The translations under genes and the position numbers were made by a program. A stretch of DNA of 42,200 nucleotides from Sandaracinaceae bacterium (GTDB taxonomy: Bacteria > Myxococcota_A > Polyangia > Polyangiales > Sandaracinaceae): positions 1 to 42,200 of the forward strand of contig JAVJQK010000068.1 of the NCBI GenBank assembly GCA_040218145.1, written 5' to 3'. Under the pieces are notes generated by a model that searched no databases, had not been told where the DNA came from, and worked only from the letters and a program-made list of their open reading frames with translations. Positions 1-20,988 of this stretch are shown here, piece by piece (the stretch's first letter is position 1; each line of letters opens with the position of its first letter).

Positions 1-63
1 CGGAGCTGCAATCTCCGGCCCTCACCCTATGCGCGACGACGATCGTCTCCCGGCCCGTCGCGC

Positions 64-2343: not shown

Positions 2344-3625
2344 GCACGAGGGCTGGAAGGAATGGTCGCTCAGGGACATTGGCGAGTGGCGCAGCGGAGG
2401 CACGCCATCCAAAGGACGGCCCGACTACTGGAACGGGAGCGTTCCGTGGGTGAGCCCTAAGGACATGAAGGTGTTCGCGCTTCGCGACACCCTGGACCAC
2501 ATCTCCGAACGAGCGCTGTCCGACGGGGCACGTCACGTTCCGGCCGGCAGCATTTTCATCGTCGTGCGGGGCATGATCCTCGCGCATACATTCCCGGTGT
2601 GTCTCGCTGAACAACCGATGGCGTTCAACCAGGACGTGAAGGCCATCGTGACCAACTCGTCGGTCGATGGACGCTTCCTCGCGCACTGGCTACACGGGCG
2701 CTCCGACGCGCTGTTGCGACTGGTCACAGAAGCTACCCACGGCACCAAGCGGATCGACCTCCGGGACCTCCTGGCGCATTCCATCACCCTCCCGCCCCTC
2801 CCCGAGCAGCGGCGGATCGCGGAGATCCTCGACACGGTCGATGAGGCGATTCGGAAGACCGAGGAGATCATCACCAAGCTGAAGCAGGTGAAGCAGGGCC
2901 TGCTCCACGACCTCCTCACCCGCGGCATCGACGACAACGGCGAGCTACGCGACCCGGACCGCCACCCCGAACAGTTCAAGGACTCCCCCCTCGGGAGGAT
3001 TCCGAAAGCGTGGGAGCCCGTCGAGCTAGGGGACCTGGTTAGCGCATCTAGGCCCATCGTCTACGGCATCCTCATGCCGGGCCAGGGGCATCCCGGCGGC
3101 GTGCCGGTGGTCAAGGTGAAGGACATTAAGAACGGGGTCGTCGCCGCGCACGGGCTGCTGCTAACCAGCCCCGCGATCGACTACCAGTACCGTCGCTCAC
3201 GTCTCGCCGAGGGCGACCTGCTCTTCACCATCCGAGGAACCGTCGGTCGAACGGCCTTCGTCCCCTCTCGTCTTCATGACGCCAACATCACCCAGGACAC
3301 AGCGCGCATTGGGCTCGTTCGCGGCAACCCCGACTTCGTGCGCGAGTACTTGTCCATGCCCCGGCCCCGAGGATTCATCGAGACGCACACCATCGGAGTT
3401 GCAGTGAAGGGTATCAACCTCCGCGATGTGCGACGCATCCCATTGGCGCTCCCCGCACAGGCAGAGGCTGACGGGATCGCATCTCGCCTGCTCGGGATCC
3501 GCCGACGGGTCGCGATGGAAAGAGCCCAGGCCTCGAAACTCCGACTCCTCAAGCATGGCCTGATGGAAGACCTCCTCAGCGGCAGCATCCGGGTCACGGC
3601 GTTATTGGAGGAGCCGGCGGAATGA
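2336..3625 (+). CDS. hsdS: Type I restriction-modification specificity subunit HsdS
   Basis: DNA-recognition subunit of the type I complex, 429 aa. The ATG lies inside the last codons of hsdM (8-nt overlap), and MPRHEGWKEWSL is a typical HsdS opening. Two target-recognition domains can be placed: residues about 1-150, and about 222-395 starting at IPKAWEPVELGDL. They are separated by the conserved helical spacer beginning LPPLPEQRRIAEIL (about 152-165) and continuing to about 210. A second, weaker spacer helix closes the protein (KLRLLKHGLMEDLLSG). The two-domain length is normal for HsdS. Its TGA overlaps the ATG of a truncated hsdR-like start at 3622, not the real hsdR, which lies 0.9 kb further on. 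Confidence 0.93.
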   Translation: MPRHEGWKEWSLRDIGEWRSGGTPSKGRPDYWNGSVPWVSPKDMKVFALRDTLDHISERALSDGARHVPAGSIFIVVRGMILAHTFPVCLAEQPMAFNQDVKAIVTNSSVDGRFLAHWLHGRSDALLRLVTEATHGTKRIDLRDLLAHSITLPPLPEQRRIAEILDTVDEAIRKTEEIITKLKQVKQGLLHDLLTRGIDDNGELRDPDRHPEQFKDSPLGRIPKAWEPVELGDLVSASRPIVYGILMPGQGHPGGVPVVKVKDIKNGVVAAHGLLLTSPAIDYQYRRSRLAEGDLLFTIRGTVGRTAFVPSRLHDANITQDTARIGLVRGNPDFVREYLSMPRPRGFIETHTIGVAVKGINLRDVRRIPLALPAQAEADGIASRLLGIRRRVAMERAQASKLRLLKHGLMEDLLSGSIRVTALLEEPAE

Positions 3626-3789
3626 ACGGCGGTTCCGAGTGGGGCGAGGTCGAGGGCCCCGCCCTCGACCAGCTCTCGTCGATGGATGTGGTCATGGACC
3701 TAGACGAGCCCTCCGCAGCCGGGGGCGGGTGGTTTCACCTGGCCGTGGCCCGCACCCTGCTGACCCCTTCAAGCGAGCATGTCGAATGA
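3622..3789 (+). pseudogene. Truncated duplicate of the hsdR 5' end (55-codon mini-ORF)
   Basis: A 55-aa frame that starts ATGA-overlapped with the hsdS stop. Its first ~20 codons (MNGGSEWGEVEGPALDQLSS) closely match the start of the genuine HsdR at 4544 (MNGGPEWAEVEEPFLDQLAS). A second matching stretch, DEPSAAG versus DDPSATG, follows after a short gap. After about 35 codons the match ends and the frame runs to a TGA that overlaps the ATG of the next gene at 3786. It is therefore a remnant or duplicate of the hsdR start that still forms a stop-start bridge between hsdS and the inserted gene. Whether the peptide has any function cannot be told from sequence. Confidence 0.8.
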
Positions 3790-4547
3790 CCACGGAGCAT
3801 TTCTTTTCCGAGGCGGAGCGGCGTCTCATCGAGGAGTGGCCCGACGTGCTGGGGCGAATCGCGATCGTGTCTCGGCAGAAGCCAACGCCGTTCTTTCGCG
3901 CCCTTCGTGCCAAGGACCTTGCGACGATGAAGCGCTGGGTACATCCGGATGACGATCCGTTCCCAGCCGGCGTGTGGCTTCGAGACAGTGAAGGCAGATC
4001 GCTCTCGTCCAATCCCATCGACTGCATCCGTGAGTGCGTGCTGGATACCTTCCGGCTGAGAATGAACAGCGGCGACATGACCCGGCACCGCGGCAAGGCC
4101 GAGACCGCAACCTACATCCTCGTCTATCTGTGTCGCCGCCGAGCGCTCGCATGGAACCTGCTGAGGATCTTCGTGCCGCTCCTTCGCCCTGGGGCCCTCG
4201 ATGAGCAGACCCAGGGCCAGCTCGAGTTCATGTTCATCGAACATGCATGGCCCGCGGTGTTCGATTTCGACGATCTGGCCGAGCCCAGGGCTGCCGAGTT
4301 TGTGAGTGCGCCGTCGGAACCGTTCGACTGGCCAGACAGCCTGAACTCGTTGGGTGATGGGGAGCGCGCAACGATGCTGGAGTACGCCGGGCTCGCTCCG
4401 CTTGCCGACCCGGCACGTCCGGCGATCGCCCCGTGGAACGAGCGTTGGTTCAACCTCGAATGGCTCTGGACCGAATCAGCGGAGCGCCCGCCCGCTCACG
4501 CGCTCCGAACCCTCATGGAATCTATGGGTCGTAGGGGCAGGGAATGA
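3786..4547 (+). CDS. Unknown 253-aa cargo protein inserted between hsdS and hsdR
   Basis: No family recognised. The ATG (MTTEHFFSEAERRL) overlaps the stop of the 55-codon hsdR remnant, and the TGA overlaps the hsdR start (GGAATGAACGG), so it appears translationally coupled on both sides. The protein is soluble with no signal peptide. It looks mainly helical, with an Arg-rich segment around residues 95-130 (GDMTRHRGKAET, LCRRRALAWNLL) and a Trp-rich C-terminus (APWNERWFNLEWLWTES). No nuclease, NTPase or HEPN signature was found by eye. The location matches that of the anticodon nuclease gene prrC in other type I loci, so a toxin or accessory anti-phage role is possible. That is inferred from position only. 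Confidence 0.75.
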   Translation: MTTEHFFSEAERRLIEEWPDVLGRIAIVSRQKPTPFFRALRAKDLATMKRWVHPDDDPFPAGVWLRDSEGRSLSSNPIDCIRECVLDTFRLRMNSGDMTRHRGKAETATYILVYLCRRRALAWNLLRIFVPLLRPGALDEQTQGQLEFMFIEHAWPAVFDFDDLAEPRAAEFVSAPSEPFDWPDSLNSLGDGERATMLEYAGLAPLADPARPAIAPWNERWFNLEWLWTESAERPPAHALRTLMESMGRRGRE

Positions 4548-7500
4548 ACGGCGGTCCCGAATGGGCCGAAGTCGAGGAGCCCTTCCTGGACCAGCTCGCT
4601 TCGATGGGATGGAAGATCGTCACCGGGAACGTGGACGACCCATCGGCGACGGGACGGGAGTCGTTTCGTGAGGCCCTCATGAAGCAGGACCTCCGCAAGG
4701 CTATCGCGCGGATCAATCTCCGTGACGGTGAGCCGTGGCTCGACGACGCTCGGCTCTCCCAGGCGGTCAGCGAACTCGACCGCATCGGCCACCAGAAGCT
4801 GATCGAGGCCAACCAAGAAGCGACCCGCTTGCTCCTCGAGGGCGTCCAGGTCGCGGGCCTCGAAGGCTGGGATGGCGGTCGCGACAGGACGATCCACTTC
4901 ATCGATTGGGACCGCCCCGAGAACAACACCTTCATCGCCATCAACCAGTTCAAGGTGGACTGCCCCGGGGGGCAGGCGAAGGGCTCCATCCGGCCTGACA
5001 TCACGCTCTTCATCAACGGCATCCCGGTCGTCGTCGTGGAAGCCAAGAGCCCTGGCATCTCAGAGCCGATTCCCGCCGCAGTAGACCAGCTCCGCCGCTA
5101 CCACAACGCACGGACGACCGCGGGAGAGGTGGAGGACGCGGAGGGCAACGAGCGACTCTTCCATACGAACCAGTTCCTCATCGCGACCAGCTACGACGAG
5201 GCGCGAGTCGGGACCATCGGCGCCGACGCCCGCTACTACCTGGAGTGGAAGGACACCGCGCCGATTCCGCTCGCCGAAGTACAGGTCGAGCTGGGCAAGG
5301 AGCAGCTCTCCAGCCAGAACAAGCTCATCGCTGGGATGCTCCGCCCCGCGCACCTGCTCGACATCATCCGGCACTTCACGCTCTACCAGCAGGTCAGCGG
5401 GAAGACGGTCAAGATCGTCTGCCGCTACCAGCAGTTCCGCGCTGTGCAGCTCGCGGTCGAAAAGCTTCTCCACGGCAAGACGAAGAGGGAGGACGGCGAG
5501 CACGACCGGCGCGGCGGGATCATCTGGCACACGCAGGGGTCCGGTAAGAGCCTCACGATGGTCTTCCTCGTGAAGAAGATGCGCTCCATCCCGGAGCTGC
5601 GGCGATTCAAGATCGTCGTCGTCACCGACCGCAAGGATCTGGAGCGTCAGCTCTCCGCGACCGCGGCGCTGACGGGGGAGACCGTCGAGCGCGCCCGCCG
5701 CGTGCGCCAGGTGAAGTCACTGCTGAAGCGGAAAGGGCCGGGCATCGTCTTCGCGATGATCCAGAAGTACCAGGACCGCGACCTCGACGCGCTACGCCCC
5801 GGTGACGAGGTCGGTGATCTCGGCTTGCTAAATGACGACGAGTCGATCCTCGTGATGGTCGACGAGGCCCACCGGAGCCAGAGCAGCGCGCTCCACGCGA
5901 ACCTCCTGCAAGCGCTGCCGAACAGCGCGCGCATCGGCTTCACGGGAACGCCGATCATCATGGGCGACAAGAAGCGCACCCACGACATCTTCGGCGAGTT
6001 CATCGACCGCTACACGATCAAGGAGGCCGAAGAGGACGGCGCCACGGTGCCAATCCTCTACGAGGGCCGCACCGCCGAAGGCGCCGTGTCCGAGGGGCGC
6101 GACCTCGACCAGCTCTTCGAGGACCTCTTCGCCGACCGGACCGAGGACGAGCGCGAGGCCATCAAGCGCAAGTACGGCACCAAGGGCTCCATCTTCGAGG
6201 CCGAGCAGCTCATCGACGCCAAGGCCGCCGACATGCTCCGGCACTACGTCGAGCACATCCTCCCGAACGGCCTCAAGGCGCAGGTCGTGGCCTACAGCCG
6301 CCGCGCCTGCGTCCGCTACCAGGCTGCGTTCGAGCATGCCCGAACCGAGCTCGTCGCTGCAGCAGAGGGACTGGACGAGGCGACCCGTCGTCTCGATGAG
6401 CTCGAGCTCGCGAGCAAGCCGCGAACGGTCCGGGCGGCCGCGCACGCTTGGCGCTCCCTCGACGCCCTCCGAGCGCTCGAGTTCTCAGCCATCATCTCCC
6501 CCGACAACAACGACCCTCCCGAGTGGCGGGAGTGGAGCGAGCCCGGGAAGATCGAGAGCCGCATCGCCCGCTTCAAGAAGCCCATGCCCGACCGCGACTC
6601 GAGCGATGAGGACGCCGGCGGCGACCCGCTCGCGTTCCTCATCGTGAAGTCGATGCTGCTCACCGGGTTCGACGCACCCATCGAGGGCGTCATGTACCTC
6701 GACCGGCCCATCCGCGAGGCCGAGCTGCTGCAGGCCATCGCCCGCGTGAACCGCACCGGGCACGGCAAGACGGCGGGCATCCTCGTCGACTACTACGGCG
6801 TCGCCCGACACCTGAAGGACGCTCTGTCCGCCTACAGCACCGAGGACATCGAAGGCGCCCTCCAGAGCCTGGCCGACGAGATCCCGAAGCTCCGGGACCG
6901 CCATGCCCGCGTCATCGGCATCTTTCAGAGCCGCGACGTCGATCCCATCGACGACAAGGACACAGCGATCGAGCTGCTCCGCGACGAGCGTCTGCGCGCC
7001 GAGTTCTCGGTCAAGCTCAAGCAGTTCCTCGCCACCCTCGACCTCGTCCTCCCGCGCCCCGAGGCGCTGCCGTACGTGAACGACGCCGAGGTCCTGGGTG
7101 AGATCTACACCCGCGCCCGAAACCGCTACCGCCAAGGCCTGCCTGAGCTCAGCAAGTCCATCGGACGCAAGGTCCAGCATCTGATCGACGAGCACGTGAT
7201 CTCCCTCGGCATCGACCCGAAGATCCCCCCTATCGCGATCACCGACGCCAAGTTCGCGGCCCACGTCAGCCGCGAGGTCTCCGACCGCGCCAAGGCGTCC
7301 GAGATGGAGCACGCCGTCCGGAGCCACATCAAGAAGAAGCTCGACGAAGACCCCGTCCACTACCAGGGCCTCTCGGACCGGCTCGAGGAGATCCTGGAGA
7401 AGTTCGGCAGCGACTGGGAGCAGCTCGTGATGGCCCTGTCGGAGTTCGTCGAGGAGGTGAAGAAGGGCCGCAAGAAGGACGACGACCTCGGCCTCGACCC

Positions 7501-7804
7501 TGACCTCCACGCCCCCTTCTTCGACCTACTCAAGCAGGAGCGTGAGAAGGAAGCGCCCGTTCGGGGTGCAGACGTGAAGTGGCTCGCCGAGCTCGCCGTC
7601 CAGCTCGTCGAGCGCGTCGTCCGCCCCACCGTGAACGTCGTCGGGTTCTGGAAGAACGCGCCGCGCCAGGAAGAGCTACGCGGACAGATCTTCATGTTCC
7701 TCGACGAGAGCGAGGTCGTCGACTTCGACCGCGCCGATGCGGTGGCGGACCGGCTCATGGAGCTGGCCAAGGCCAACGATCACAAGCTCACGAGGGGTTC
7801 GTAG
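4544..7804 (+). CDS. hsdR: Type I restriction enzyme motor/endonuclease subunit HsdR
   Basis: DNA translocase and endonuclease subunit, 1086 aa. The N-terminal PD-(D/E)xK nuclease is clear: PD at about residues 151-152 followed by the EAK motif at about 166-168 (RPDITLF, VVVVEAKSPG). The SF2 motor follows: Walker A HTQGSGKS near 328-335, DEAH near 439-442 (MVDEAHRSQ), and motif III TGTP near 466. The second RecA domain contains LLTGFDAP and an arginine-rich motif VI region (LQAIARVNRTG). The C-terminal helical region binds the methylase in this family. Length and motif order look intact. The start overlaps the cargo gene by 4 nt. The TAG overlaps the next gene's GTG by one base. Confidence 0.96.
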   Translation: MNGGPEWAEVEEPFLDQLASMGWKIVTGNVDDPSATGRESFREALMKQDLRKAIARINLRDGEPWLDDARLSQAVSELDRIGHQKLIEANQEATRLLLEGVQVAGLEGWDGGRDRTIHFIDWDRPENNTFIAINQFKVDCPGGQAKGSIRPDITLFINGIPVVVVEAKSPGISEPIPAAVDQLRRYHNARTTAGEVEDAEGNERLFHTNQFLIATSYDEARVGTIGADARYYLEWKDTAPIPLAEVQVELGKEQLSSQNKLIAGMLRPAHLLDIIRHFTLYQQVSGKTVKIVCRYQQFRAVQLAVEKLLHGKTKREDGEHDRRGGIIWHTQGSGKSLTMVFLVKKMRSIPELRRFKIVVVTDRKDLERQLSATAALTGETVERARRVRQVKSLLKRKGPGIVFAMIQKYQDRDLDALRPGDEVGDLGLLNDDESILVMVDEAHRSQSSALHANLLQALPNSARIGFTGTPIIMGDKKRTHDIFGEFIDRYTIKEAEEDGATVPILYEGRTAEGAVSEGRDLDQLFEDLFADRTEDEREAIKRKYGTKGSIFEAEQLIDAKAADMLRHYVEHILPNGLKAQVVAYSRRACVRYQAAFEHARTELVAAAEGLDEATRRLDELELASKPRTVRAAAHAWRSLDALRALEFSAIISPDNNDPPEWREWSEPGKIESRIARFKKPMPDRDSSDEDAGGDPLAFLIVKSMLLTGFDAPIEGVMYLDRPIREAELLQAIARVNRTGHGKTAGILVDYYGVARHLKDALSAYSTEDIEGALQSLADEIPKLRDRHARVIGIFQSRDVDPIDDKDTAIELLRDERLRAEFSVKLKQFLATLDLVLPRPEALPYVNDAEVLGEIYTRARNRYRQGLPELSKSIGRKVQHLIDEHVISLGIDPKIPPIAITDAKFAAHVSREVSDRAKASEMEHAVRSHIKKKLDEDPVHYQGLSDRLEEILEKFGSDWEQLVMALSEFVEEVKKGRKKDDDLGLDPDLHAPFFDLLKQEREKEAPVRGADVKWLAELAVQLVERVVRPTVNVVGFWKNAPRQEELRGQIFMFLDESEVVDFDRADAVADRLMELAKANDHKLTRGS

Positions 7805-8667
7805 TGCCCATTCCATCAGGCTTTAAAGAGAAGGAGTATGAGGGGCTCCTCTACCCAGCGCTCTCAGCCTCGCCCTTGGTCTGGACTCCAGACCAAGTGC
7901 TAGAGGAGCACGTTGGGATCGATGCCGCCCTGACCTGCGTCACGGCGTATTGGCAGGTGGTCCATCGGCCCCCGGCCCCTGGCCTGGTGCTCGCCCATTT
8001 CGGGCTGTTCCCGATACTGCCGAAGGCCCAGCAGAAGGAGACGCTCCCCGACTTCAGCACCAACCTCTTCGTCCAAGCCAAGAGGACGTGGGAGTACAAG
8101 AGGCGCCCTCCCGAGGCTGTCACCGATGAGATCGGTCCACCATGCCGATACTTCGACATCGACGAAGATCAGCGCGACAAGCTCTGCGAACTCGCCGCCC
8201 ATCTTGGTGCGGCGGCGGAGGTTACATACGCCTGCGCAAACCTCATGACGAAGCAGGACCTCTTCAAGCACGCGAAGGCAGGAGACCTCGTGCAGAAGAG
8301 CACGTTTCCAACCGCATACAGCCTTGCGGGTCACGGTCGATGGCTTTTCGACTCCCCAGGAGCGAAGGGCACGGGGCTTTCAGAACCGGAACGAATCGAG
8401 CTGCCGCCACTGCTGGAGCGTCTAGAGCGTCTCGCTTCATACGAGCGTCAAGTCGATGGAAACCCGGACCTTGAACGCCAACTCAGCGTCATCTGGCATG
8501 GACTGCTCGCGACCTGGGGGGAAGCTCATTCGTACCGTTGGGTCTTCGATCTCGCCGGGGAGATACAGACGGGAGGCCTAGCGGGGCTGGCCGCCCAGAT
8601 TCGGGTTGTGCTTGAAGTGCTCGGAATCGGCTGGTTGGTCGTCGGCCGGATGGTGACTTCTCCATGA
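7804..8667 (+). CDS. Unknown 287-aa protein of the type I RM operon, possible nuclease fold
   Basis: The start is a GTG sharing one base with the hsdR stop (TAGTG). The end overlaps the next gene by ATGA, so it belongs to the operon. No family name can be given. Residues about 30-95 contain the pattern EEHVGIDAAL followed about 50 residues later by LFVQAKRTW. The acidic residue, GxD and Q-A-K arrangement resembles the core of restriction-endonuclease-like (PD-(D/E)xK) domains, but the spacing is long and the match is tentative. A second half (about 115-160) has FDIDEDQRDKLCELAAHLG and TYACANLM, and the C-terminus is hydrophobic and probably helical. No signal peptide is evident. Role in restriction or in another defence function is unknown. 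Confidence 0.75.
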   Translation: MPIPSGFKEKEYEGLLYPALSASPLVWTPDQVLEEHVGIDAALTCVTAYWQVVHRPPAPGLVLAHFGLFPILPKAQQKETLPDFSTNLFVQAKRTWEYKRRPPEAVTDEIGPPCRYFDIDEDQRDKLCELAAHLGAAAEVTYACANLMTKQDLFKHAKAGDLVQKSTFPTAYSLAGHGRWLFDSPGAKGTGLSEPERIELPPLLERLERLASYERQVDGNPDLERQLSVIWHGLLATWGEAHSYRWVFDLAGEIQTGGLAGLAAQIRVVLEVLGIGWLVVGRMVTSP

Positions 8668-9365
8668 CGCTGGAGACCCTCACCGTCGGCGACTTGGAGT
8701 TCGAGCTGCGCCGCAGTGCGCGGCGACGCTCGGTCCAGGTGACCGTCGATCGAGGCGGCGAGCTGATCCTCTCCGCGCCCAACGAGTGCTCCGTCGCGAC
8801 GATGGAGGACTTCGTAAAGGCGAAGCGGTTCTGGATCTACACGAAGCTGGCGGAGAAGGAGGCCCTCCACCCGCAGGTGAGCCGCAAGCAGTACGTCAGC
8901 GGCGAGGGCTTTCCCTACCTCGGGCGTAGCTACCGCCTCCTCCTGGTGAACGACCAGAACGTGCCTTTGAAGCTGGAGCGCGGCCGCTTCAAGATGCGCC
9001 GGGCCGATGCGACCCAGGGGCGCGAGCACATGGTCGCGTGGTACCAGGCTCACGCGGCAGCCTGGCTATCCAAGCCCGTAGAACGCCTCAAGGCCCGCGT
9101 CGGTGTCGACCCCAGGGGCGTCGTCGTCCAGGACCTCGGCTACCGCTGGGGCTCCTGCGGCAAGGGCCGCAAGCTCTACTTCCACTGGCGCTCGATCCTG
9201 CTCCCGCCGAGAATCGTCGAGTACATCGTCGTTCACGAGCTGGTCCACCTGCGCGAACCGCACCACACGGCTGAATTCTGGACGCGGGTGGAGCGCGCGA
9301 TGCCCGATTTCGGGCAGCGGAAGCAATGGCTAGCTGAGCACGCCGGAGAGCTCGTTACCGTATGA
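8664..9365 (+). CDS. YgjP-type (DUF45/M48-like) zinc metallopeptidase
   Basis: A 233-aa protein of the YgjP/DUF45 family (SprT-like zinc metallopeptidases). The zinc site is HELVH at residues 191-195 followed by the family-specific downstream HxxxFW element (HHTAEFW). The family motif YRWGSCG lies about 30 residues before it. The N-terminal half (SARRRSVQVTV, LILSAPN) matches the usual beta-rich opening. Start ATG overlaps the previous stop by 4 nt. YgjP genes commonly accompany type I RM operons, but their role there is not established; turnover of an RM component is a guess. The catalytic residues look intact. Confidence 0.92.
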   Translation: MTLETLTVGDLEFELRRSARRRSVQVTVDRGGELILSAPNECSVATMEDFVKAKRFWIYTKLAEKEALHPQVSRKQYVSGEGFPYLGRSYRLLLVNDQNVPLKLERGRFKMRRADATQGREHMVAWYQAHAAAWLSKPVERLKARVGVDPRGVVVQDLGYRWGSCGKGRKLYFHWRSILLPPRIVEYIVVHELVHLREPHHTAEFWTRVERAMPDFGQRKQWLAEHAGELVTV

Positions 9366-9431
9366 GCCGCGTGCCTGAGACTCATGGGGCCTATCAGAAC
9401 CGTCTCGCGAGTCGGCAGGAGCCGTAGAGCG

Positions 9432-10844
9432 ATGCCGACCATCTTCTACTCTTGGCAGACCGACGCCCCCAACAATGTGAATCGCTCGTTCATCGAACAA
9501 GCACTTGAACGAGCCGTCCGAGAGCTCAACGCCGAGATCGTCGAGGCTGAGCGTGACGAGGTCGAATTGACCCAAGACACGCAGGGGGTCCCTGGGACAC
9601 CAGACATCGCGGCGTCGATCCTCGCCAAGATCGAGTCCTGTGCTGTCTTCGTGTGCGACGTGTCGCTGGCGCTGAAGGGTGAGAGGGCGAGAGGAGGGAC
9701 GAGGCTGTGCCCGAACCCGAACGTCATGCTGGAGCTGGGCTACGCCATGAAGACGCGGGGGCAGCATCGGATCCTAATGGTGTGCAACACCGCGTTCGGC
9801 CGCATCGAGGACCTCCCGTTCGACCTACGCGGCAAGCGCCCGGTCCCCTATACCGCCGATGCAACAACGGACCTCCCGGAAAGCAGAAGAGCCCTTGCGA
9901 GGGTCCTGACAAGGCGGATTCAGGAGATCTTCAGTATCGAGGAGCCGGGCGCTCCCGCCTTGAGCCCCGTGGATCTCGCACTCGAGGCGATCGCGTCGCA
10001 GGCGACGAACCGCAAGGCGCTTGTCAGAACGGCGATGGTGGACCTACTTGCTCGTCTGGACGCGCTCAACCTGTCACCCGACAGCACACAAGCCAGCGAG
10101 GACGAACTATATCGGGTCTTGGAGTCATCAAAGGATGTACACGAGCAGTTCTTCGAGCTCGCCCTCCGGATTGAGGAGTACGAGGATCACCAGGCTCTCG
10201 ATGGTGTGATTCAGGGCTTTCAGGAGTTGGCGCAACGCTTCAACGTTCGAAATGGCCACAAGGGCGTGAACCCCGTCGCATGGTTCGAACTCTACTACGC
10301 AACCGGACGGATCTGGCTGCTTCTCGCGACGACCGCTATCTACCGGCGTCAGTCGTGGAGTCTGCTGTCGAGGCTCTTCGGCGCGAGGATTCAGGTTGCC
10401 AACCCGCGTCGCCATCACGCTCCAGGCTGGCACTCAATAATGTACCTAAATGTGCGCAGCGACTATCTCAGCAGGCTTGGACGAGCCCGGGGCCGGACCT
10501 CGCTCTTTGCCGACCTGTTGAAGGCTTGGGCAGATGAGAAGGGGGCCTCACTGCCGTCGATCGGGGAGCTGATCGACACCGACCTGGTCCTCGCGCTATC
10601 GCACCGCGGCGAGTGGATCCGCTGGTGGCCCGAGACCGTTGTCTATGCTGCCCACGCGGACCCACTTCTCGTGCACGCGCTTCAAGACGGCGCGTTCGTG
10701 GCCGAGCTCGTCCAGGCGATGGGGATCAGCGTGGAACAGCTGCGCGCGCACATGAGAGAGCTGAAGGAGCGCATCGCGCGATGGCTTCAGTACGACCCCT
10801 CTGCGCCTCTTCACGCTTTCGATCCGGACCAGATCGGTCGCTGA
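9432..10844 (+). CDS. TIR-like / nucleotide-binding-type defence protein with unknown C-terminus
   Basis: A 470-aa protein. Residues 1-160 match a family common in bacterial defence islands: MPTIFYSWQTDAPNN, NRSFIEQALERAV, GVPGTPDIAASILAKI, FVCDVS and NPNVMLELGYAMK. The hydrophobic strand, SWQ loop and NPNVxxELGYA helix with Glu101 recall the TIR/SEFIR-type flavodoxin-like fold and predicted NAD- or nucleotide-hydrolysing effectors. Residues about 175-470 are mostly helical with no motif recognised. The ATG was chosen because homologous sequence begins there; GGAG lies about 12 nt upstream. The gap to the metallopeptidase gene is 66 nt, so the gene may be transcribed with the RM operon but is not overlapped. 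Effector activity is inferred. Confidence 0.78.
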   Translation: MPTIFYSWQTDAPNNVNRSFIEQALERAVRELNAEIVEAERDEVELTQDTQGVPGTPDIAASILAKIESCAVFVCDVSLALKGERARGGTRLCPNPNVMLELGYAMKTRGQHRILMVCNTAFGRIEDLPFDLRGKRPVPYTADATTDLPESRRALARVLTRRIQEIFSIEEPGAPALSPVDLALEAIASQATNRKALVRTAMVDLLARLDALNLSPDSTQASEDELYRVLESSKDVHEQFFELALRIEEYEDHQALDGVIQGFQELAQRFNVRNGHKGVNPVAWFELYYATGRIWLLLATTAIYRRQSWSLLSRLFGARIQVANPRRHHAPGWHSIMYLNVRSDYLSRLGRARGRTSLFADLLKAWADEKGASLPSIGELIDTDLVLALSHRGEWIRWWPETVVYAAHADPLLVHALQDGAFVAELVQAMGISVEQLRAHMRELKERIARWLQYDPSAPLHAFDPDQIGR

Positions 10845-10859
10845 ACCAGAAGGCTCCCA

Positions 10860-11834
10860 ATGCCCGTCAGGAAGTCCAAATCGAACAACTCGCGCAAGCG
10901 CCAGCCTCGACGGATCACCCACCCTCCGAGGCTCGAAGAACTCCTCGAGGCCGAGCGCCAACTGCTGCGGGCCCGCTTCGGAGCGGCGCGTGCCGCGCTC
11001 TCCAGTCATTCGGGAGAACTCGGGGCAAGCCTGGAATATGAGGCGCTGAGTTTCCTGCGAACATTTCTGCCCCGTGAGTATGGGCTCGGCAGGGGGTTCA
11101 TCGTGTGGCGCGAGAAGTGCCGTGCGGAAGACGCAACCTGGGAATTCGATGAGGAGCCCTACCGCGTGGCCGTGAGCCCCCAGCTCGACATCATCATCTA
11201 CGATGCGGTGCGCGGCGGCTCCGTGGCGGACCTCGGTTCTTCGCAGGTTTTCCCAATTGAGCACGTATTTGGGTACGTGGAGGTGAAAGCCGTCTTTCAG
11301 GATGAACTGGCCCACACCCTCGAAGTATCCCGCCTGCTTCGTGAGCCTAACGTGGGCTTCTACTCCGCGCGACCCGAGGCATTCCGGCCTCTCATGACCC
11401 AGTCGTATTGGGCAGTCGTGGACGCCGATCTCCGGCATGGGCCGCATCGAGCGAACACGATTGTCACGGCTCCGATCGACCGGCCCCGGATCGGGTGCTG
11501 GTTCATCGGCTTCGAGTACGAACGAACACCACCCAAGCGAGGGCGCCGAATGGCCGAGATCAGGAAGTCCTTCGAGTCGTCCTGGAAGCGGGTCAGCTTC
11601 CCTGCGCACCTTCACGGCGTGCTCATCGCCGACGTCCAGACGGAAGCCGGCATGAGTGAGGCCGTTTTCCTCAAGTCGCTACCGGACCATGCCGGGGTGA
11701 GACCGTTCACCAGTGATGTCAACTCGGAAGGCGCAATCGGACGTTTCAAGCGCGATATGCTAACGGACCTTGTCGTATTTCAGCGGGTCCCGGCCGACAT
11801 CGCCGTCAACTACGAAGGCTACTGGGCGAAGTGA
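10860..11834 (+). CDS. DUF6602-type protein with a PD-(D/E)xK-like core
   Basis: A 324-aa protein beginning 15 nt after the TIR-like gene, probably co-transcribed with it. Residues 50-82 (HSGELGASLEYEALSFLRTF, LPREYGLGRGFIV) and SPQLDIIIYD at about 106-115 fit the DUF6602 family. Asp110 in QLDIIIYD and the E-V-K triad in YVEVKAVF (residues 141-143) are arranged like the active site of restriction-endonuclease-like nucleases, with hydrophobic strands on both sides. The N-terminus is very basic (RKSKSNNSRKRQPRR), suiting nucleic-acid binding. It is likely an accessory nuclease of the defence island. The family function is not established and this copy has not been tested. Confidence 0.75.
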   Translation: MPVRKSKSNNSRKRQPRRITHPPRLEELLEAERQLLRARFGAARAALSSHSGELGASLEYEALSFLRTFLPREYGLGRGFIVWREKCRAEDATWEFDEEPYRVAVSPQLDIIIYDAVRGGSVADLGSSQVFPIEHVFGYVEVKAVFQDELAHTLEVSRLLREPNVGFYSARPEAFRPLMTQSYWAVVDADLRHGPHRANTIVTAPIDRPRIGCWFIGFEYERTPPKRGRRMAEIRKSFESSWKRVSFPAHLHGVLIADVQTEAGMSEAVFLKSLPDHAGVRPFTSDVNSEGAIGRFKRDMLTDLVVFQRVPADIAVNYEGYWAK

Positions 11835-12131
11835 GGTAAACGCAAAGGTCGATCCGTCGTCCTTGACCTGCTCGGTCGAGCCGTCCGAGTCCTACCGACC
11901 AACAAGGGGCACAGATGGAGCGAGGTGCGGTACGCGCCCGCCTCGCTGCTCGTGACCGGCGGCCAGCTCTCCAGAATCTCTCCATCCTGGCGGGACACTT
12001 CGGGACGACACGCACCGCCCTGAGACGCTAGAGCGAAGATCAACAAGCATTCTGGGGATGTACAGCTCGCAACCATTTTCCCCCGCGGAGCGTCATTCGC
12101 TCGAGCCGCCCGCTTGCCATGGCCAACGGAC
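11835..12131. other. Intergenic stretch between convergent genes, right edge of the defence island
   Basis: About 300 bp with no convincing gene on either strand. No tRNA-like cloverleaf, attachment-site repeat or transposase remnant was recognised. Short open frames here lack ribosome binding sites and family features. This is where the defence island meets the opposite-strand gene. Confidence 0.5.
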
Positions 12132-13564: not shown

Positions 13565-14467
13565 TCAACAGCGACTCGTGGAGCGGAGAGCCCCTCCGAG
13601 GGCGCGCGGGAGCGAGAGTGGTTCGTCTCCGACGCGCGCGAGGCCCGGCTCGAGGGTGACGCCGATGGCGTAGCCGGCCGCACGAACCTGCCGAACGAGC
13701 GCGGGATTCCAGCGACCGTCCGGGTACGCGAAGGAGCGCGCATCGACACCGAGCGAGGCGAGCGCGGCGCGAGAGTCGCGAAGCTCATCGGCGACGGCGG
13801 GCTCGGAGAGCAGGGGCAGGAACGGGTGCGAACGGGTGTGGCTGCCGATCGCCCAGCCCGAAGCAACCAGTCGCGCGAGCGCCTCTGGAGTCAGGTACAG
13901 CTGCGCCGACGTGGGTTCGCACGGCGCTCCCACCGCCTCAACGAGCTCTCGCAGCAGGGGCTCGCGCTCGGCTGGGGCTGCCGCGAGGAACGCGCGCCTC
14001 TCGGGCCCGTCGACCAGGCGTGCGTAGTCGCTCGGGACGTCGAGGTCGAATGCCCACGCGCGCGCGCCCGACCCCAGAGCTCCGCGCCGTCGCGTCGCCG
14101 CGTTCAGCACCGCGTACCAGCGATCCGCCGGAAGGACGGCGCCATCGAGGACGTCGGTCGCGATGAACGCCGTGGCCGGGACGCCCAGCTCGGCGAGGAT
14201 CGGCGCCGCGTGCTCGAGCACGTCCATGTAACCGTCGTCGAACGTGAGCCAGCAGGCAGGACGTGCGAACGTGCGCTGACCCGCGAGCCAGGCGATCACA
14301 TCGCCCTCGCCGACCAGGTCGAACTGCGCCGCGAGCGACATCACCTCCGCGCGGAAGCTCACGGTCGAGACGGCAGTACCGCGAACGAAGTACGGACGCC
14401 CGTCGCCGGCGCGCGCCGACTCGGGGAGCACGCGGTGGTAGCAGAGGATGGTGAGCTCGGCGCTCAC
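13565..14467 (-). CDS. Polysaccharide deacetylase (NodB-type, carbohydrate esterase 4)
   Basis: A 300-aa deacetylase expected to remove N- or O-acetyl groups from a glycan. The start is a GTG overlapping the stop of the upstream gene by 4 nt (GTGA), giving [12 protein letters not shown], the usual NodB-domain opening. Motif 1, TFDDGYMD, carries the catalytic Asp and metal-binding Asp. Motif 2, SHTRSHPFL, supplies the two metal-binding His residues. SFAYPDGRW matches motif 3. No signal peptide is evident, so it may act in the cytoplasm on lipid-linked or nucleotide-linked sugars. It is the last gene of an operon with a glycosyltransferase-kinase-methyltransferase fusion and a LOG/SLOG protein, which points to a shared glycan pathway. 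The frame could extend upstream to 14512, but the coupled start is favoured. Confidence 0.9.
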
Positions 14468-15012
14468 GGGAACGTCCGCGCCGGCTTCCGCGGTGCGAGC
14501 ACCAGCTCGCATGCAAGCGCCACCGCCTCGAGCGGATCATGCGGTCCATGCACCCGGTCCTCTCGTCGGTCATCGATCGCCTCGCCCGCGAGACGACGAC
14601 CCCAACCGGCCCCGCTGCCGACGGCGATCACAGGCTTCCCGAGCTGCCAGGCGAGCGCGATCTCGCTCAGGGTGCCGGCGCGGCCGCCCACCACGAACAC
14701 GAGTTCCGCGGTCGCGACGACGACGAGGTTCCGGCCGTGGTTCAGGCCCGTGCAGATCGGGATGTCGACGAACTCGTTCGCGCAGCTCGCGTCGTAGGTC
14801 GGAAGCACGCCGATGACGTCGCCGCTCCGATAGCGTGACGAGCTGCGGGCGCCGCGGGATGCGGCGCGCATCACGCCGCCGAGACCACCGGTCACGATAC
14901 GAAAACCGCTCGTGACGGCCGCCTCGCCCAACGCCGCCGCTACCGCGTCCTCCTCCTCTGTCGCGCGAACGCTTCCGATGATCGCTGCGATACGCCGCGT
15001 ACGCTCCGTCAT
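14464..15012 (-). CDS. LOG/SLOG-fold nucleotide-binding protein (TIGR00725-like)
   Basis: A 182-aa Rossmann-like protein of the LOG/DprA (SLOG) superfamily. It starts [16 protein letters not shown]. The motif [15 protein letters not shown] corresponds to the GGG.GLMG phosphate-binding region of LOG proteins, and [23 protein letters not shown] to the PGG.GT..E motif with its catalytic-type Glu. LOG enzymes cleave nucleoside monophosphates to base and ribose 5-phosphate, whereas other SLOG proteins only bind nucleotides; which applies here is unknown. The ATG overlaps the large fusion gene's stop and the TGA overlaps the deacetylase GTG, so the three genes are tightly coupled. A nucleotide-related ligand in a glycan operon is unusual. 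Confidence 0.85.
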
Positions 15013-18000
15013 GGCCCCTCCGCTCGGCACCTGAAGATCATGAAGTCGGACGCGGGCTCCATGGTGTCGACGTTCACGCCCGGCGTCTCGTCGATCGACT
15101 CTACGCGCAGCGCCGCCGCACGGAACATCTCCTCGTAGTGCCGCATCGGCCGATGAACCTCGTGGCGCAGGCGCCCGCTCGATCGAACGAGCTTGGTGTA
15201 GGCGAATGACTCCTCGGGTTCCCAGGCCGAGGGGAGGACGCGGTGCTGTAGGGCGGTGTGACAGCCCACGTGACGGGGGTTGCAGACGACCAGGATGGCG
15301 CTGCCGCCCCGGTGGAGCAGGGCTCGCACGTCGTCCAGCACCGAGCGGGCGTCTTCGTCGCCGAGCGTGCAGAGCACGAGACAACACACGACCGCATCGA
15401 ACGCGCTCTGCTCGCGGGAGCGCAGGACCTCGACCTCGCCGCGGGTCAGGAAGCCGGGGCCTGTCGCATCGCGCCAGTGCTCAGCCAGGCTCGCGTCGGG
15501 ATCGTACGCCGTCACGGCGATGCCTTCCTGCGCGAGCCGCGCCGCGAGCCGACCGCGGCCACAACCGTAGTCGAGCAGACGCGCGGGCCGGATCTCGCGC
15601 ACTGCCTGGACGAGCCGGTCGTCGACCAGCGTCTCCTTGCTCGGCGGGTGGAAGGCCGACCAGAACTGAACGAAGCCGGCCAACTCGGGGAGGGCCTCGT
15701 CGTCGATCGACCGACGCATGAGCGTCTTGAGCTCCGGGTTCGCCGAGTGATGCGCGGTCAGGAAGGCGCGGCGCGCCATGCGGCGAAAACCGCGGTCATC
15801 GTACGGCCTGACGTCCGAGCCGTAGTCGACGAGCTTCACGTGGGGGCCCACGACCACGAGGTTGTCGGGATGGATATTCGTGCAGACGACGCCCGCCCGC
15901 CGGCAGTCGTGCAAGAGCGTCAGGAGCCCCGACGCGTAGCCTCCGCGGTAGGGCACAGACGGCTCGTAGTCGTAGGTGAGCACGACGCGCGCGCGGTCCG
16001 CCCGCACTTCTCGCAACGGATAGAGGCTCGTCGCGCCTTCGAACCGTCCCACGAGCGAGTGCAGGAAGGCGAGGCGCTCCTCGTGGTCACGCCCCTTCCA
16101 GTAGTCGATGTACTTGTAGACGGTCCTACCGTCGGTCAGGACGACCGCCTCGGAACCGGTCCCGAGAAGCCTGAGCGCATCGCGGTGTGCGAACGCGCGG
16201 CCGAGCCATGCGCGGGCGTTCTCGATGCGCTGCTCGTCGATCCACGTCACGGGTCCGCTGCGCGTCGCGGATCGCCGCGCCGCGAGCTCTCCCTCGAGCT
16301 CCGCGAGGTACTCCCGGACGACATCGTCGCTGACCACGTTCACGCGCCGTCGAAACTCCGCCAGGCGCTTCACGTCATACTCCGCGCGAAGCACCGCGAG
16401 GAACTCACGCGCAGACGTGACTGCGGCCGCGCACTCGGCGTCGCCAAGCCACCAGTAGCGGTCGGCTCGACTCGGCTCGAAGTAGCCCGAGAGGGCGTGT
16501 GCGAGGCCGGCGGCTCGGTGGAAGCTGAGGGCGAAAGCCGCGGTCCGCTCACGAAGGAACTTGCGGAACTTGCGGATCGTGTAGGTCACATCGCGTTCCG
16601 CGAAGCGAGAGAGATCCGGCACGCCGCCCGCCCCAGCCGCGCGGTGGACCTCGAGCTTCTCGAGGCACAGCGCCTCGAGCGCCGAGTAGAGCGCGAAACC
16701 CTGGATGTCCCGACAGAGCTTGCCGAGGTCGAGACCACCGACGGGCCCGCGGCGGCGATCCTGTCGCACCGCGAAGGGAATCCTGACGACCGTCCGGCCG
16801 GCGACGTAGCGGTTGAGCAGACTCCAGACCATGTCCGAGCGGCGCGTGCTCTGCCCTTCGACCTCCGGCACCGCGTTCGGGAAGTCCCGAAGCGCCTCGG
16901 GGTCGAAGACGAACGCGTTCCCTCCGCGATGCACCGACGGCTTTGCCATGGCAACCGGGTCGACCGCACCGTCGACCAGGAGCGGCCGGAACACCTGCTC
17001 GCCGGCGAGGATGCGCGGAAGCCGGAGCATCGTCGAGATGAAGGCATCCCGCGCCGTCGCCGAGCCGGTCGACGGGGTGATCCAGAACGGCGACTCCAGG
17101 TGGTCGGTCTCGCGCCGCGACAGGTCGTAGTAGTAGTCCTCGCACCGCGCGCGCAGCGCCATGTTCTCGGCGCTTCGGTCGGGGAGCTCGTGGCTGGGCT
17201 CGAGGGCCGCGAGCCATTCGAGGTTGTGGTACGCGTCCACGAGCTGGGTGCGGACGCACGACGCGAACGGCAGGGGCGGCGCGTCGGTGACGGTGCCGAT
17301 CGCGACGTCGACGCGCTGCTCGCGCAGCCGGTCGAGCACGTCGACGACCGCGAGCGGTTCGCTCGCAACGCCACGGCCAGCCCGCCACGCGAGGGTCTCG
17401 AGCTGCATGTCTTCGTCGAGGATCCACACGACGGCCCCCGGCCGCCGCTTCGCGAGGTCGTGGAGATACGCCTGAAGCATCGTCCGAGCGGTGGCGATGC
17501 TCGCGCGCCCGAGGCCGCGGTCGAAAGGCCGACCGAAGTGACCGGCCGCGGCGTCGAACGTCTGCTGCTCGAGCGGCAAGAAGAAGCAGCCGATCCCCGC
17601 GCGTCGCGCGTCTGCAACGACGTCCTCCAGACCGGACGCGGGCGGGCGCGGCCCGTTCTCGAGGAGGACGAGGTCGAGGTTCGCGAGGCGGCGGTCGGTC
17701 GTGAGCCCGGCGAGCTCCTTCGCCAGGGACGCGACCTGCGCCGCGTTCGCCGCCGACGCGATGACACCGACGACCAGGGCAACCCGCGCTGCCGGATCGG
17801 GGGCCACCCACTGTGGGGGCTCGGCCAACGTCGAGCGCTCCAGACCTGGCTCGGACCAACCGAAGAGCCGTTCGGCGCGGTCGGCGAACGCTCGACGCTC
17901 GGCCTCGGTCATCCGGCCCATGTACTTGCGCCAGAACGCCGTGAGCCCAGCGAGCTTCGCGGCGGATCCCTTGGACGACAGGCGAGCGCGCCCGGGCTCG

Positions 18001-18668
18001 GCGTGGTGGTGGACCAAGGCGCGCGCCAGTCGCGCGTAGCGCGTATCCGCAAGATCTGCGATGCGGATGCAGACGTCGCGATCCGTCGTGCTCGGGAGCG
18101 ACTCATCGAAGGTCCCGGCCGCGAGCAGGGTCGAGAGCCGTACGAACAGGTTCGAGCCCTGGATATGCGGATTCCCGACGAGGAAGCTGCGCGTGTCGAG
18201 CTCCTCGGGCGCGCGGCACGTCACCGCGCTTCCAGCGGACTCGTGCCGCACGATGTCGGCGGCGATCATATCGAGCCCACCCGCACTCGCAGCCCCGAGG
18301 CACTCCTCCAGGTAAGTCGAATCCCAAGCATCGTCGTCATCGAGGATCGCGACGAAGAGCGTGCTGGGGTCCTCGACCTCACGCGTCAGCCAGTCGAGCC
18401 CGACGTTCCAGCCACCGCTCGCGCCCCGCGTCCGGTCGTTCTCGAGGTACTTGATGCGGGTGCGCGGGAGCGCCGCGTGCGAGACGATGCGCCGGTTGTC
18501 GTCGCGATGGCGGCGATCAGAGTCGTCGACGACGACCAGGAAGTCTGGCGCCCAGGTCTGTGTCGCGACGGCCCGAAGCGACCGGTTCGCGAGCTCGCTC
18601 GCGCGATTCCGCGTCGCGACGAGGACCGCGACCGAGGGCAGCGACTCCCGGTCGGCCTGTTCGGACAC
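15009..18668 (-). CDS. Giant fusion: GT2 glycosyltransferase, second GT-like domain, kinase-like domain, SAM methyltransferase
   Basis: A 1219-aa cytoplasmic protein. Residues 12-220 are a GT2 domain ([26 protein letters not shown] with the metal-binding DxD). Residues 296-640 form a second GT-A-like domain ([20 protein letters not shown]). Residues 832-960 are a kinase/phosphotransferase fold: [11 protein letters not shown], Lys852 in [10 protein letters not shown], catalytic NIHPDNLV (Asp935, Asn936) and LVDYGSD as the DFG equivalent. Residues 1028-1130 are a class I methyltransferase ([24 protein letters not shown]). All catalytic residues look present. The GTG at 18668 gives [21 protein letters not shown], with GGAG upstream; the frame continues upstream to 19610 only as antisense-like sequence inside the next gene. 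It is coupled to the LOG-like gene by ATGA and lies 44 bp after the Cys-repeat lipoprotein gene. The substrate is unknown. Confidence 0.9.
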
Positions 18669-18712: not shown

Positions 18713-20887
18713 TCACGGATGAGGCTGCCACTCGTACGCGGCCGTGCTCCAGGAGGCGCGGACTCCGCTCACCTCGTCCACCGTCTCCATGCCGGCGCCC
18801 TCGTTCATGTGGAAGCGGAGGACGTCGTTCGGGTGGGTGTACTCGACGGCGGGCGTGAAGGCTCCGCCGCGGACGGCGGCGTTCATGAGGTGGACCTCGT
18901 CCACGGCCCCGATGAAGTGATCCCCCGCGACGTAGAAGGGGGTCCCTGCGACGGGGGGCACGTAGGTCGCGGCGCCCTGGTCGACGAGCATGCCGTCGAC
19001 ATAGAAGCGCAGGGTCGAGCCGTCGTACCCACACGAGTAGTGGTGCCAGGCGCCCGAGGTCAGGACGGACATGGGCGCGCCGAAGCGCTGGAAGCCACTG
19101 CCGGTCCCAACCGTGCACTGGATGTTGCCGCGATACAGCTCGATGAACATGCACCTGTGCCCGGCCGAGCACGCGTTCGCGAGCTTCTGGGCGGGGTCGG
19201 AGTACGTGACGCTGTCGATCCTCGCCCACAGCTCGAGCGTGAAGGTGGGGGAGTAGGTGATCGGGTCCACCGAGCGGAGGTTGTCCCCGCTCACCGCGGT
19301 GCGTCGGATGGCGAAGTCCGAAGGGACGCAAGCTCCGGCGTCGCACCGCTCCTCCGATGCGCACGGCACGTCCACGTAGCCGAGCCCGCCGGGCTCGCAC
19401 GTCCGGGTGGTGCTGGCGTCGAGGCAGGTCGCGCTGCCCGGGCTGCACAGCCAGGGGACGCACGCGCCCGCCCTGCACGTCGACATGCTCGCGCAAGGGC
19501 TGAGCGTGGAGCCGAGCCCGTCCGCGTTGCAGACCCGGCGGGTCATCGCGTCGCTGCAGTCCACCGCGCCCGGCACGCAGGTTCGGGGGACACAGCTCGC
19601 GCTCGAGCACGACTCATCGGAGGCGCAGGCGCCGACGACCCAGCCGAGGCCATCGGGCTGGCAGGTGAGCGTGGAGTCGATGCCCCCGCACGCCGTGGAT
19701 CCAGGCGCGCACGTCTGGGGGACGCAGGCTCCAGCGAGACACGTCTCCATCGCGCCGCACGTGGCCGACGACCACCCGAGACCGTCGGCGTCGCACACAC
19801 GCCGCTCGGCCGCGGAGGTGCACTCGACCGCGCCGGGGGTGCAGACATGCGGGGTGCAGTCGCCTCCCGCGCACGACTCGCCCGCGCCGCACGGCGTGCT
19901 CGTCCAGCCGAGGCCGTCGGCGTCGCAGGCGAGCCGCGTGTCCGTGCCGCCGCAGGACGTCGCCCCGGGCGTGCAGCGATGAGGCACGCACGCGCCGCTC
20001 AGACACGTCTCCGTCGCGCCGCAGGCGGTGCTGCTCCAGCCGAGCCCGTCGGCCTGGCAGAGGCGCCGCGTCGCGGCGTCCACGCACTCCGCGGTGCCCG
20101 GGGCACAGGCGTGCGCGACGCACGCGCCCCCGCTGCACGACTCTCCCGCGGCGCAGGCTTCGGTGCCCCACCCCAGTCCGTCGTCGCCGCAGACGATCCG
20201 GGTGCCCGCTCCACCGCACATCGCCTCGCCGGGCGTGCAGGCGTGAGGAACGCAAGCCCCAGCGACGCAGGTCTCGCTCGCCTCGCAAGCCGCGCTCGTC
20301 CACTCCAGGCCATCGGGGGCGCACGCGCGACGCGTGCCGGCGTCGACGCACTCGACCGCTCCGGGGTCGCAGACCCGAGCCTCACAGCTCCCCGCGCGGC
20401 ACGACTCCTCGCTCGCGCACGACTCGACGCTCCACCCCGTGCCGTCGTCCAGGCAGACCGCGCGCTGGTCGGCGGACGTGCAGGCCGCGTCGCCTGGCTC
20501 GCACGACCGCGGGATGCACGCCCCGGCCACGCACGACTCGCCGGTCGCGCAGTCGGTCGTCTCGAAGCCGAGACCGTCCGCGCGGCACCGAGAGCGAGTG
20601 TCGTCATCGTCACACGCCGCCTCGCCGGGCGCGCAGATCCACTCGACGCACGCGCCGTCGCGACACGACTCTTCCGGAGCGCACGAGGAGAGGTCGTAGC
20701 CCGTGCCGTCGCCGCGACACACCTGCCGGACCGACAGCCCCTCGCACATCACCGCGCCCGGCGTGCACACGCTGGCCGCGTCGCCCGCGCTCGCGTCCTC
20801 CGGACCCGGGACATCACCGTCACAGCCGATCGACGCCACGCCGAGCGCCACGCCGAGGACCATCCAGCGCCACTTGTCATGCTCCAT
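18713..20887 (-). CDS. Cys-rich 11-repeat lipoprotein with LamG/ConA-like lectin domain
   Basis: A 724-aa surface lipoprotein. The ATG at 20887 has GGGGAGAAGCG just upstream. The signal peptide ends at a lipobox (VASIGC, Cys22), followed by an Asp/Ala/Gly linker. Residues 40-523 are eleven 44-aa repeats, each with six Cys in the same spacing. A typical unit contains CTPGA, TRRVC, DGLGW and ETCLAGACVP, resembling myxobacterial Cys-rich surface modules that are probably disulphide-bonded. Residues about 530-724 are a LamG/concanavalin-like jelly roll (FTLELWARID, WHHYSCGYDG, LRFYVDGMLV), often carbohydrate-binding. Its stop is 44 bp before the GT-kinase-methyltransferase fusion on the same strand, so it may head that operon. 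It may bind or carry the glycan made there. Confidence 0.88.
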   Translation of the reverse strand: MEHDKWRWMVLGVALGVASIGCDGDVPGPEDASAGDAASVCTPGAVMCEGLSVRQVCRGDGTGYDLSSCAPEESCRDGACVEWICAPGEAACDDDDTRSRCRADGLGFETTDCATGESCVAGACIPRSCEPGDAACTSADQRAVCLDDGTGWSVESCASEESCRAGSCEARVCDPGAVECVDAGTRRACAPDGLEWTSAACEASETCVAGACVPHACTPGEAMCGGAGTRIVCGDDGLGWGTEACAAGESCSGGACVAHACAPGTAECVDAATRRLCQADGLGWSSTACGATETCLSGACVPHRCTPGATSCGGTDTRLACDADGLGWTSTPCGAGESCAGGDCTPHVCTPGAVECTSAAERRVCDADGLGWSSATCGAMETCLAGACVPQTCAPGSTACGGIDSTLTCQPDGLGWVVGACASDESCSSASCVPRTCVPGAVDCSDAMTRRVCNADGLGSTLSPCASMSTCRAGACVPWLCSPGSATCLDASTTRTCEPGGLGYVDVPCASEERCDAGACVPSDFAIRRTAVSGDNLRSVDPITYSPTFTLELWARIDSVTYSDPAQKLANACSAGHRCMFIELYRGNIQCTVGTGSGFQRFGAPMSVLTSGAWHHYSCGYDGSTLRFYVDGMLVDQGAATYVPPVAGTPFYVAGDHFIGAVDEVHLMNAAVRGGAFTPAVEYTHPNDVLRFHMNEGAGMETVDEVSGVRASWSTAAYEWQPHP
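19319..20770 (-). repeat. Eleven 132-bp in-frame tandem repeats inside the Cys-rich gene
   Basis: These encode the 44-aa six-cysteine units. All eleven keep the same length and the six Cys positions, but their amino acids differ, with units 6-8 most alike. This points to old amplification under structural constraint, possibly with local gene conversion. Confidence 0.85.
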
Positions 20888-20988
20888 CGCTTCTCCCCAC
20901 GCGCCAAGAACGAACAGCCCGCTGTCGAGCGGAAGAGCGAGCGCCAGGCACGCTCCACGCACTGCAACGTAACGGGCGAGCGCGGCTC

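Follow-up and report, generated by a model that had tools for sequence, protein, structure and literature searches.

A four-domain fusion protein with a GT75-like domain and a probable pseudokinase in a widely spread cassette: a possible route to nucleobase-linked glycosylation

Introduction

MtdL of the nucleoside antibiotic A201A is a Mn-dependent NDP-pyranose/furanose mutase of family GT75. Riboflavin-type NADAR proteins cleave the N-glycosidic bond of the compound that GTP cyclohydrolase II produces, and WbdD, which acts in O-antigen chain termination, carries kinase-fold and methyltransferase domains in one glycan protein. Bases are released from nucleotides by the known LOG enzymes (PMC9503650) and, in the blasticidin and mildiomycin pathways, by the N-glycosidases BlsM/MilB, which split cytosine or hydroxymethylcytosine off CMP or hmCMP (PMC4081090); BlsD/MilC couples free cytosine to UDP-glucuronate (PMC3715490). 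The catalytic set of MtdL consists of the DXD motif 109-111, Arg159 (the proposed nucleophile), Arg257, Asp260 (the proposed base) and the Mn ligand His287 (PMC9937993).

The window, i.e., the whole stretch of DNA analysed (42,200 nucleotides), makes up an entire single contig of the 11.06-Mb genome of a Sandaracinaceae bacterium. The initial annotation, made from the sequence alone, had described in it a fusion of two glycosyltransferases (GTs), an intact kinase and a methyltransferase, encoded together with a LOG/SLOG protein and a polysaccharide deacetylase, and had proposed that these proteins jointly build and edit one glycan or glycoconjugate. It knew of no described system with this exact set; we found none either in the open-access literature, a scope in which such an absence weighs little.

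Results

Operon structure and domain organization

The three-gene operon was confirmed with the coordinates and domains first given to it. All the genes lie on the minus strand and are joined by two 4-nt overlaps, exactly ATGA and GTGA. The genes, followed by the domains of the fusion, are listed below with the evidence for each.

15009-18668, minus strand: fusion protein, GTG start, 1219 aa (open reading frame, homologues in other genomes, domains, structure models)
14464-15012, minus strand: LOG/SLOG protein (LDcluster4), ATG start, 182 aa, predicted nucleotide N-glycosidase (TIGR00725 above cut-off; GRN...GGxxGTLSE motif)
13565-14467, minus strand: CE4 polysaccharide-deacetylase-type enzyme, GTG start, 300 aa (PF01522, motifs)
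17853-18653, minus strand: GT2-family glycosyltransferase domain (GT1), residues 6-272, LDDDD at 109-113 (PF00535, E 1.3e-12)
16413-17789, minus strand: GT75-like (MtdL/UAM-like) domain, residues 294-752 (AlphaFold2 and fold search, invariant residues, HHalign motif)
15660-16229, minus strand: protein-kinase-fold domain, residues 814-1003 (CK2/ROCK profile match, fold, residue counts)
15012-15635, minus strand: SAM-dependent methyltransferase domain, residues 1012-1219 (Pfam Methyltransf_11, E 4e-11)

The open frame of the fusion extends past the GTG start up to position 19610. The closest named relative, in a Sandaracinaceae metagenome-assembled genome, is 98% identical, and the 31 synonymous and 19 non-synonymous codon differences between the two suggest purifying selection on the fusion. 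The GT2 domain and the methyltransferase of the initial annotation were recovered by the Pfam scan of the fusion, in which neither the second GT region nor the kinase had a named match. The CE4 protein matched Pfam Polysacc_deac_1 (PF01522) with E 3e-21 and has both metal-site motifs, TFDDG and SHTxxH. By hydropathy, the fusion, LOG and CE4 showed neither a signal peptide nor a membrane segment, which argues that CE4 is probably cytosolic.

The gene for a LamG-domain protein of 749 aa with Cys-rich repeats (18713-20962, minus strand) ends 44 nt before the start of the fusion; this protein was not seen in the relatives and was excluded from the system. Beyond the downstream end of the operon, at a distance of about 6 kb, lies a gene for an HsdR-like type I restriction protein with HSDR_N and SWI2/SNF2 ATPase domains (4544-7804, plus strand). 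Positions 9384-11834 (plus strand) hold a gene with a weak, below-cut-off match to CAP12/Pycsar TIR and then one for a DUF6602 protein, and both may be defence genes. The GC content is 62-67% in positions 1-12000, where the restriction gene lies, vs. 68-75% in 12000-42200, a difference which suggests that the left part of the window was acquired horizontally.

The second domain of the fusion is GT75-like

AlphaFold2 models were built on alignments of relatives, with the two rows from a plasmid record left out, and were good for both the two-domain and the single-domain version (pLDDT 84.9 and 89.9, pTM 0.84 and 0.88). Besides the fold of residues 294-752, they placed a helical extension reaching about residue 805. 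In the fold search with residues ~294-805 the best match of the two-domain model was MtdL, with Z 20.1 over 298 residues; the single-domain model matched MtdL with Z 17.4 over 281 residues. The rice UDP-arabinopyranose mutase UAM2 gave Z 16.7 with 275 residues aligned, and in Foldseek MtdL took ranks 1-6. Generic GT-A enzymes reached Z 14-16 (16 with the single-domain model), though most of them aligned over fewer residues, so this modelled-fold evidence taken alone is good but not absolute.

The residues were compared as well. The DXD motif corresponds to D418/D420, and Arg609-x-x-Asp612 has the same spacing as Arg257/Asp260 of MtdL, a correspondence drawn from spacing and HHalign only. In the alignment of relatives, Asp418, Arg609 and Asp612 are invariant across all readable rows. 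Two positions differ from MtdL. That of the Mn ligand His287 is Gln636 in the window protein and its clade, with His in 26 of 33 readable rows. Arg473, equivalent by position to Arg159, is absent from eight rows, all belonging to variant III of the cassette (see below), where Ala, Ser, Gly or Leu stands instead (L097, L098, L052, L053, L099-L102); the activity of the mutase domain may differ in these proteins.

HHalign against a small GT75 profile picked the stretch GGN...RRSDM.W...H at a probability of only 2%, with a score that beat 150 of 150 block-shuffled profiles. The seed of that profile was an Arabidopsis RGP1 sequence, checked by its matches to rice UAM2 (E 1e-106) and to MtdL. PF03214 (RGP) matched neither the fusion nor any other protein of the genome, nor any of 113 Myxococcota genomes. 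The profile of the mutase domain retrieved only phosphodiesterase and P450 matches from the PDB sequences, taken as chance.

Altogether, these data argue for a GT75-like domain, as predicted from the models, which we do not file in GT75 because His287 is replaced by Gln636 in the window clade and Arg473 is replaced in eight relatives. The description of this region as a plain second GT was rejected: it has no Pfam match, and GT75 mutases top the fold search.

The kinase-fold domain has lost the catalytic Asp in most members

A profile of 16 relatives matched the CK2 and ROCK kinases (E 5e-5), and the fold search with the modelled domain gave Z of about 13. Lys852, HPDN (933-936) and DYG (948-950) are present where they had been placed. 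The core had been called intact, with Asp935 as the catalytic residue; profile alignment assigns the HRD catalytic position to Asn931, not Asp935. Of 25 relatives, 22 have Asn there, one has Ser and two have Asp, namely, L093 and the archaeal L016. The Gly-rich loop, Lys852 (the VAIK Lys), the Mg-binding Asn936 and Asp948 (the DFG Asp) are kept in all readable rows. Because these elements are kept and the HRD Asp is changed to Asn, binding of ATP/Mg is likely and ordinary phosphotransfer is unlikely in most members, so the domain is a probable pseudokinase; the members with Asp suggest that its ancestor was an active kinase. The residue counts thus rejected an intact kinase, and phosphorylation of the product, as had been proposed, is not supported.

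The LOG protein and its exchange for GCHII-NADAR

The LOG protein matched Pfam LDcluster4/SLOG (E 5e-32) and scored 118 bits with TIGR00725, vs. a cut-off of 106.9. Its closest solved relatives are TM1055 and then a molybdenum-cofactor (Moco) carrier protein, and its relation to the proven LOG enzymes is weak (E 6e-5). To our knowledge, no NMP hydrolase has been proven in the TIGR00725 group. The catalytic-type motif GRN...GGxxGTLSE is unbroken in the LOG copies of the cassettes.

LOG had been regarded as an unexpected member of such an operon. However, in 18 of 33 loci LOG is a neighbour of the mutase-like domain; with only one to four LDcluster4 genes per genome, this linkage is not chance. 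CE4 is found in 16 of the 33 loci. Of the losses that the initial annotation had named as refuting its reading, absence of a gene of the trio thus applies to most loci and loss of the kinase site is routine, but the LOG site is never lost. A fusion of GTP cyclohydrolase II and NADAR (GCHII-NADAR) occurs in eight loci, and none of the 33 has it together with LOG (Fisher p = 5e-4, the related loci not being independent). In the tree the GCHII-NADAR loci and one truncated locus make up a single well supported clade, and the LOG loci need several changes. The asparagine-synthase-like protein AsnB accompanies GCHII-NADAR in 8/8 loci, and one locus (L092) with LOG, AsnB and an arylamine-acetyltransferase-like protein (NAT) bridges the two types. 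In the GCHII-NADAR fusion both domains score as such, NADAR above the cut-off for the riboflavin-intermediate N-glycosidase.

We therefore regard LOG as a core part of the cassette and, judging from its motif, as more likely an N-glycosidase than a sensor. This changes the earlier idea that it may sense or supply a nucleotide.

Distribution and variants of the cassette

In profile searches the mutase-like domain was found in 16 of 379 Myxococcota genomes, 3 of 349 genomes from the phylum of the gammaproteobacterial relative, 2 of 296 from that of Ancylomarina and 5 of 145 from that of the Poseidoniales archaeon, each count including the centre genome. It was also found on a Pseudoalteromonas plasmid and on one viral contig, whose flanking integrase, anti-repressor and replication initiation genes mark it as a temperate phage. 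The cassette is rare but very widely spread (Myxococcota, Pseudomonadota, Bacteroidota, archaea, plasmid, phage). The repeated synteny across unrelated taxa that the initial annotation had named as support was thus found, and that the proteins act together is plain from other combinations in which the same modules are fused.

Variant I, which includes the window, combines GT, mutase-like, kinase-fold and methyltransferase domains with LOG and, in many cases, CE4. Three Myxococcota genomes encode all these domains, CE4 and two more GTs as ~2020-aa proteins with LOG adjoining, and in the phage a fusion of 1820 aa contains LOG itself (L064:6840-12302). A UDP-glucose dehydrogenase gene follows the phage cassette, and DNA methyltransferase genes are nearby. 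Variant II has GT, kinase-fold and mutase-like domains, GCHII-NADAR, and AsnB-like and NAT proteins. A four-gene cassette of this type stands alone on the mobilizable Pseudoalteromonas plasmid, directly after traC-like genes (L062:14986-21508). Variant III lacks the kinase domain and contains, in varying sets, the mutase-like domain, an M20 peptidase, a beta-propeller, a distant cytosylglucuronate-synthase relative, LOG and CE4. Three related cassettes without the mutase domain (L050, L051, L063) encode a radical SAM protein with kinase-fold and GT domains. In three fusions (L044, L045, L046) an extra N-terminal mutase-like fragment of ~120 aa precedes the kinase, and the full copy follows it. 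The GT4 counts in the module table cross-react with GT1 and were left out of use. No exporter, regulator or resistance gene showed a consistent link to the cassettes.

Discussion

The reading that we prefer, with a probability of roughly 40%, is an assembly line in the cytosol: an N-glycosidase would release the base of a nucleotide, the GT and the mutase-like domain would add sugars, and methylation and deacetylation would follow. We infer its reactions, their order and the product from the gene structure, predicted folds, residues, co-occurrence, fusions and the exclusion between LOG and GCHII-NADAR. LOG would convert a nucleoside 5'-monophosphate into a free base and ribose 5-phosphate, and in the sister cassettes GTP cyclohydrolase II and NADAR would perform an analogous base release from GTP. 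The GT75-like domain would interconvert NDP-pyranose and NDP-furanose or hold the sugar on an arginine. The GT2 domain would transfer sugars, in relatives together with the one to three further GTs that they carry. O- or N-methylation would fall to the methyltransferase and removal of an N-acetyl group to the cytosolic CE4, and the kinase-fold domain, with ATP/Mg bound, could be regulatory, structural or engaged in non-phosphoryl chemistry. Base release would come first, then sugar isomerisation or transfer, methylation and deacetylation, all presumably in the cytosol because the window proteins showed neither a signal peptide nor a membrane segment. The small glycosylated product would start from, or carry, a nucleobase.

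We favour a nucleobase mainly because LOG and GCHII-NADAR both relate to N-glycosidic bond cleavage; release of a base by cutting that bond appears to be their simplest common denominator. In five related cassettes there is a GT with cytosylglucuronate synthase as its sole NCBIfam match (E 1e-10 to 3e-17, below the cut-off); four of these cassettes also have LOG, and the window cassette lacks such a GT. The UDP-glucose dehydrogenase gene after the phage cassette likewise speaks for this reading. The closest fold, that of MtdL, comes from a nucleoside-antibiotic pathway. A wider generalization is possible, and we offer it tentatively: a class of cassettes, mobile in bacteria, archaea and phages, may make furanosylated nucleobase conjugates, swapping LOG and GCHII-NADAR in the base-supplying step and carrying the GT75-like domain, GTs and pseudokinase in chains of up to about 2000 aa.

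The same GTs, mutase, methyltransferase and deacetylase might instead build a furanose-containing oligosaccharide or glycolipid of the cell surface, with LOG or GCHII-NADAR only supplying ribose 5-phosphate or clearing nucleotide by-products. Glycan loci typically contain GT2, CE4 and NDP-sugar genes, a few of the loci found here have epimerase and UDP-sugar dehydrogenase genes at their flanks, and a few CE4 enzymes, e.g., NodB, are cytosolic. Nevertheless, we find this reading doubtful: the cassettes share no recurrent flippase, polymerase, ABC exporter or lipid-carrier transferase, the window CE4 has no signal peptide, the plasmid cassette consists of four genes only, and two dedicated enzymes to obtain ribose 5-phosphate from GTP would be wasteful.

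An unlikely alternative is a mobile conflict cassette, anti-phage or inter-bacterial, that is carried as cargo and produces either a nucleoside-like toxic compound or a signal in the form of a modified nucleotide. It would suit the rare and patchy occurrence across phyla, the four-gene unit adjoining tra genes on the Pseudoalteromonas plasmid, the superfusion in the temperate phage, and the type I restriction and weakly TIR-like genes beside the window operon. However, no effector-like domain was seen, and PADLOC has no model for the cassette, giving only generic or partial matches such as mad2 for the methyltransferase. The scan of 130 flanking ORFs, which had no control set, returned scattered restriction, BREX or CARF genes and no consistent partner; defence was thus set aside as the main reading and kept as a rival.

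That LOG is a nucleotide or cofactor sensor or carrier regulating the glycosylation enzymes, in the manner of its Moco carrier relatives, we consider improbable. The second-best solved relative is such a carrier, and a regulatory role would be conceivable for the pseudokinase of this operon too; against this, the GRN...GGxxGTLSE motif is strictly kept, and LOG is swapped for an enzyme pair rather than another binding protein. A chance neighbourhood or artefact, conceivable in that each family alone is common, has next to no probability and was refuted by synteny, since the linkage and fusions repeat across several phyla of bacteria, in one lineage of archaea, on a plasmid and in a phage, and two 4-nt overlaps join the genes.

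Under the preferred assembly line, the cassette points to a nucleoside-like or glycoconjugate product, which could be sought in named strains: those with the Pseudoalteromonas donghaensis plasmid, Ancylomarina and Corallococcus praedator. It would place the widespread TIGR00725/SLOG-4 proteins in a concrete biosynthetic setting, and it links families not known to work together (GT75-like mutase, pseudokinase, LOG or GCHII-NADAR, and CE4). If carriage on mobile elements proves adaptive, the cassette may also represent a new chemistry of conflict or signalling. Individually the enzyme families are known; their modular combination and the exchange of LOG and GCHII-NADAR appear to be new.

Among the known systems, WbdD also has kinase-fold and methyltransferase domains in one chain, whereas the fusion has them in the reverse order (kinase, then methyltransferase) and has lost the catalytic Asp. 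The domains of variant II are like those of the RibA-YbiA-type GTP cyclohydrolase II and N-glycosidase, but here they form one protein and go with AsnB, NAT and the GT/mutase proteins instead of riboflavin genes. With the LOG cytokinin riboside 5'-monophosphate phosphoribohydrolase and TIGR00725 (SLOG cluster 4) the cassette LOG shares the catalytic-type Arg and GGxxGTxxE; it differs from the proven enzymes in its distant relation and in having TM1055 and the Moco carrier as nearest solved structures. The GT75 mutases (MtdL of A201A, Hyg20 of hygromycin, plant UAM/RGP) have the overall fold, the DXD motif and the Arg-x-x-Asp spacing in common with the window domain. In contrast to them, the window domain is fused to GT, kinase and methyltransferase domains and is not recognised by PF03214, its clade has Gln for the Mn-ligand His, and variant III has lost the presumed nucleophile Arg473. 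The LOG protein belongs to another family than BlsM/MilB, and the window cassette has no cytosylglucuronate-synthase relative; what the cassettes share with the blasticidin S and mildiomycin pathways is a (predicted) NMP N-glycosidase adjoining GTs, a remote relative of that synthase in five sister cassettes and a radical SAM gene in some variants.
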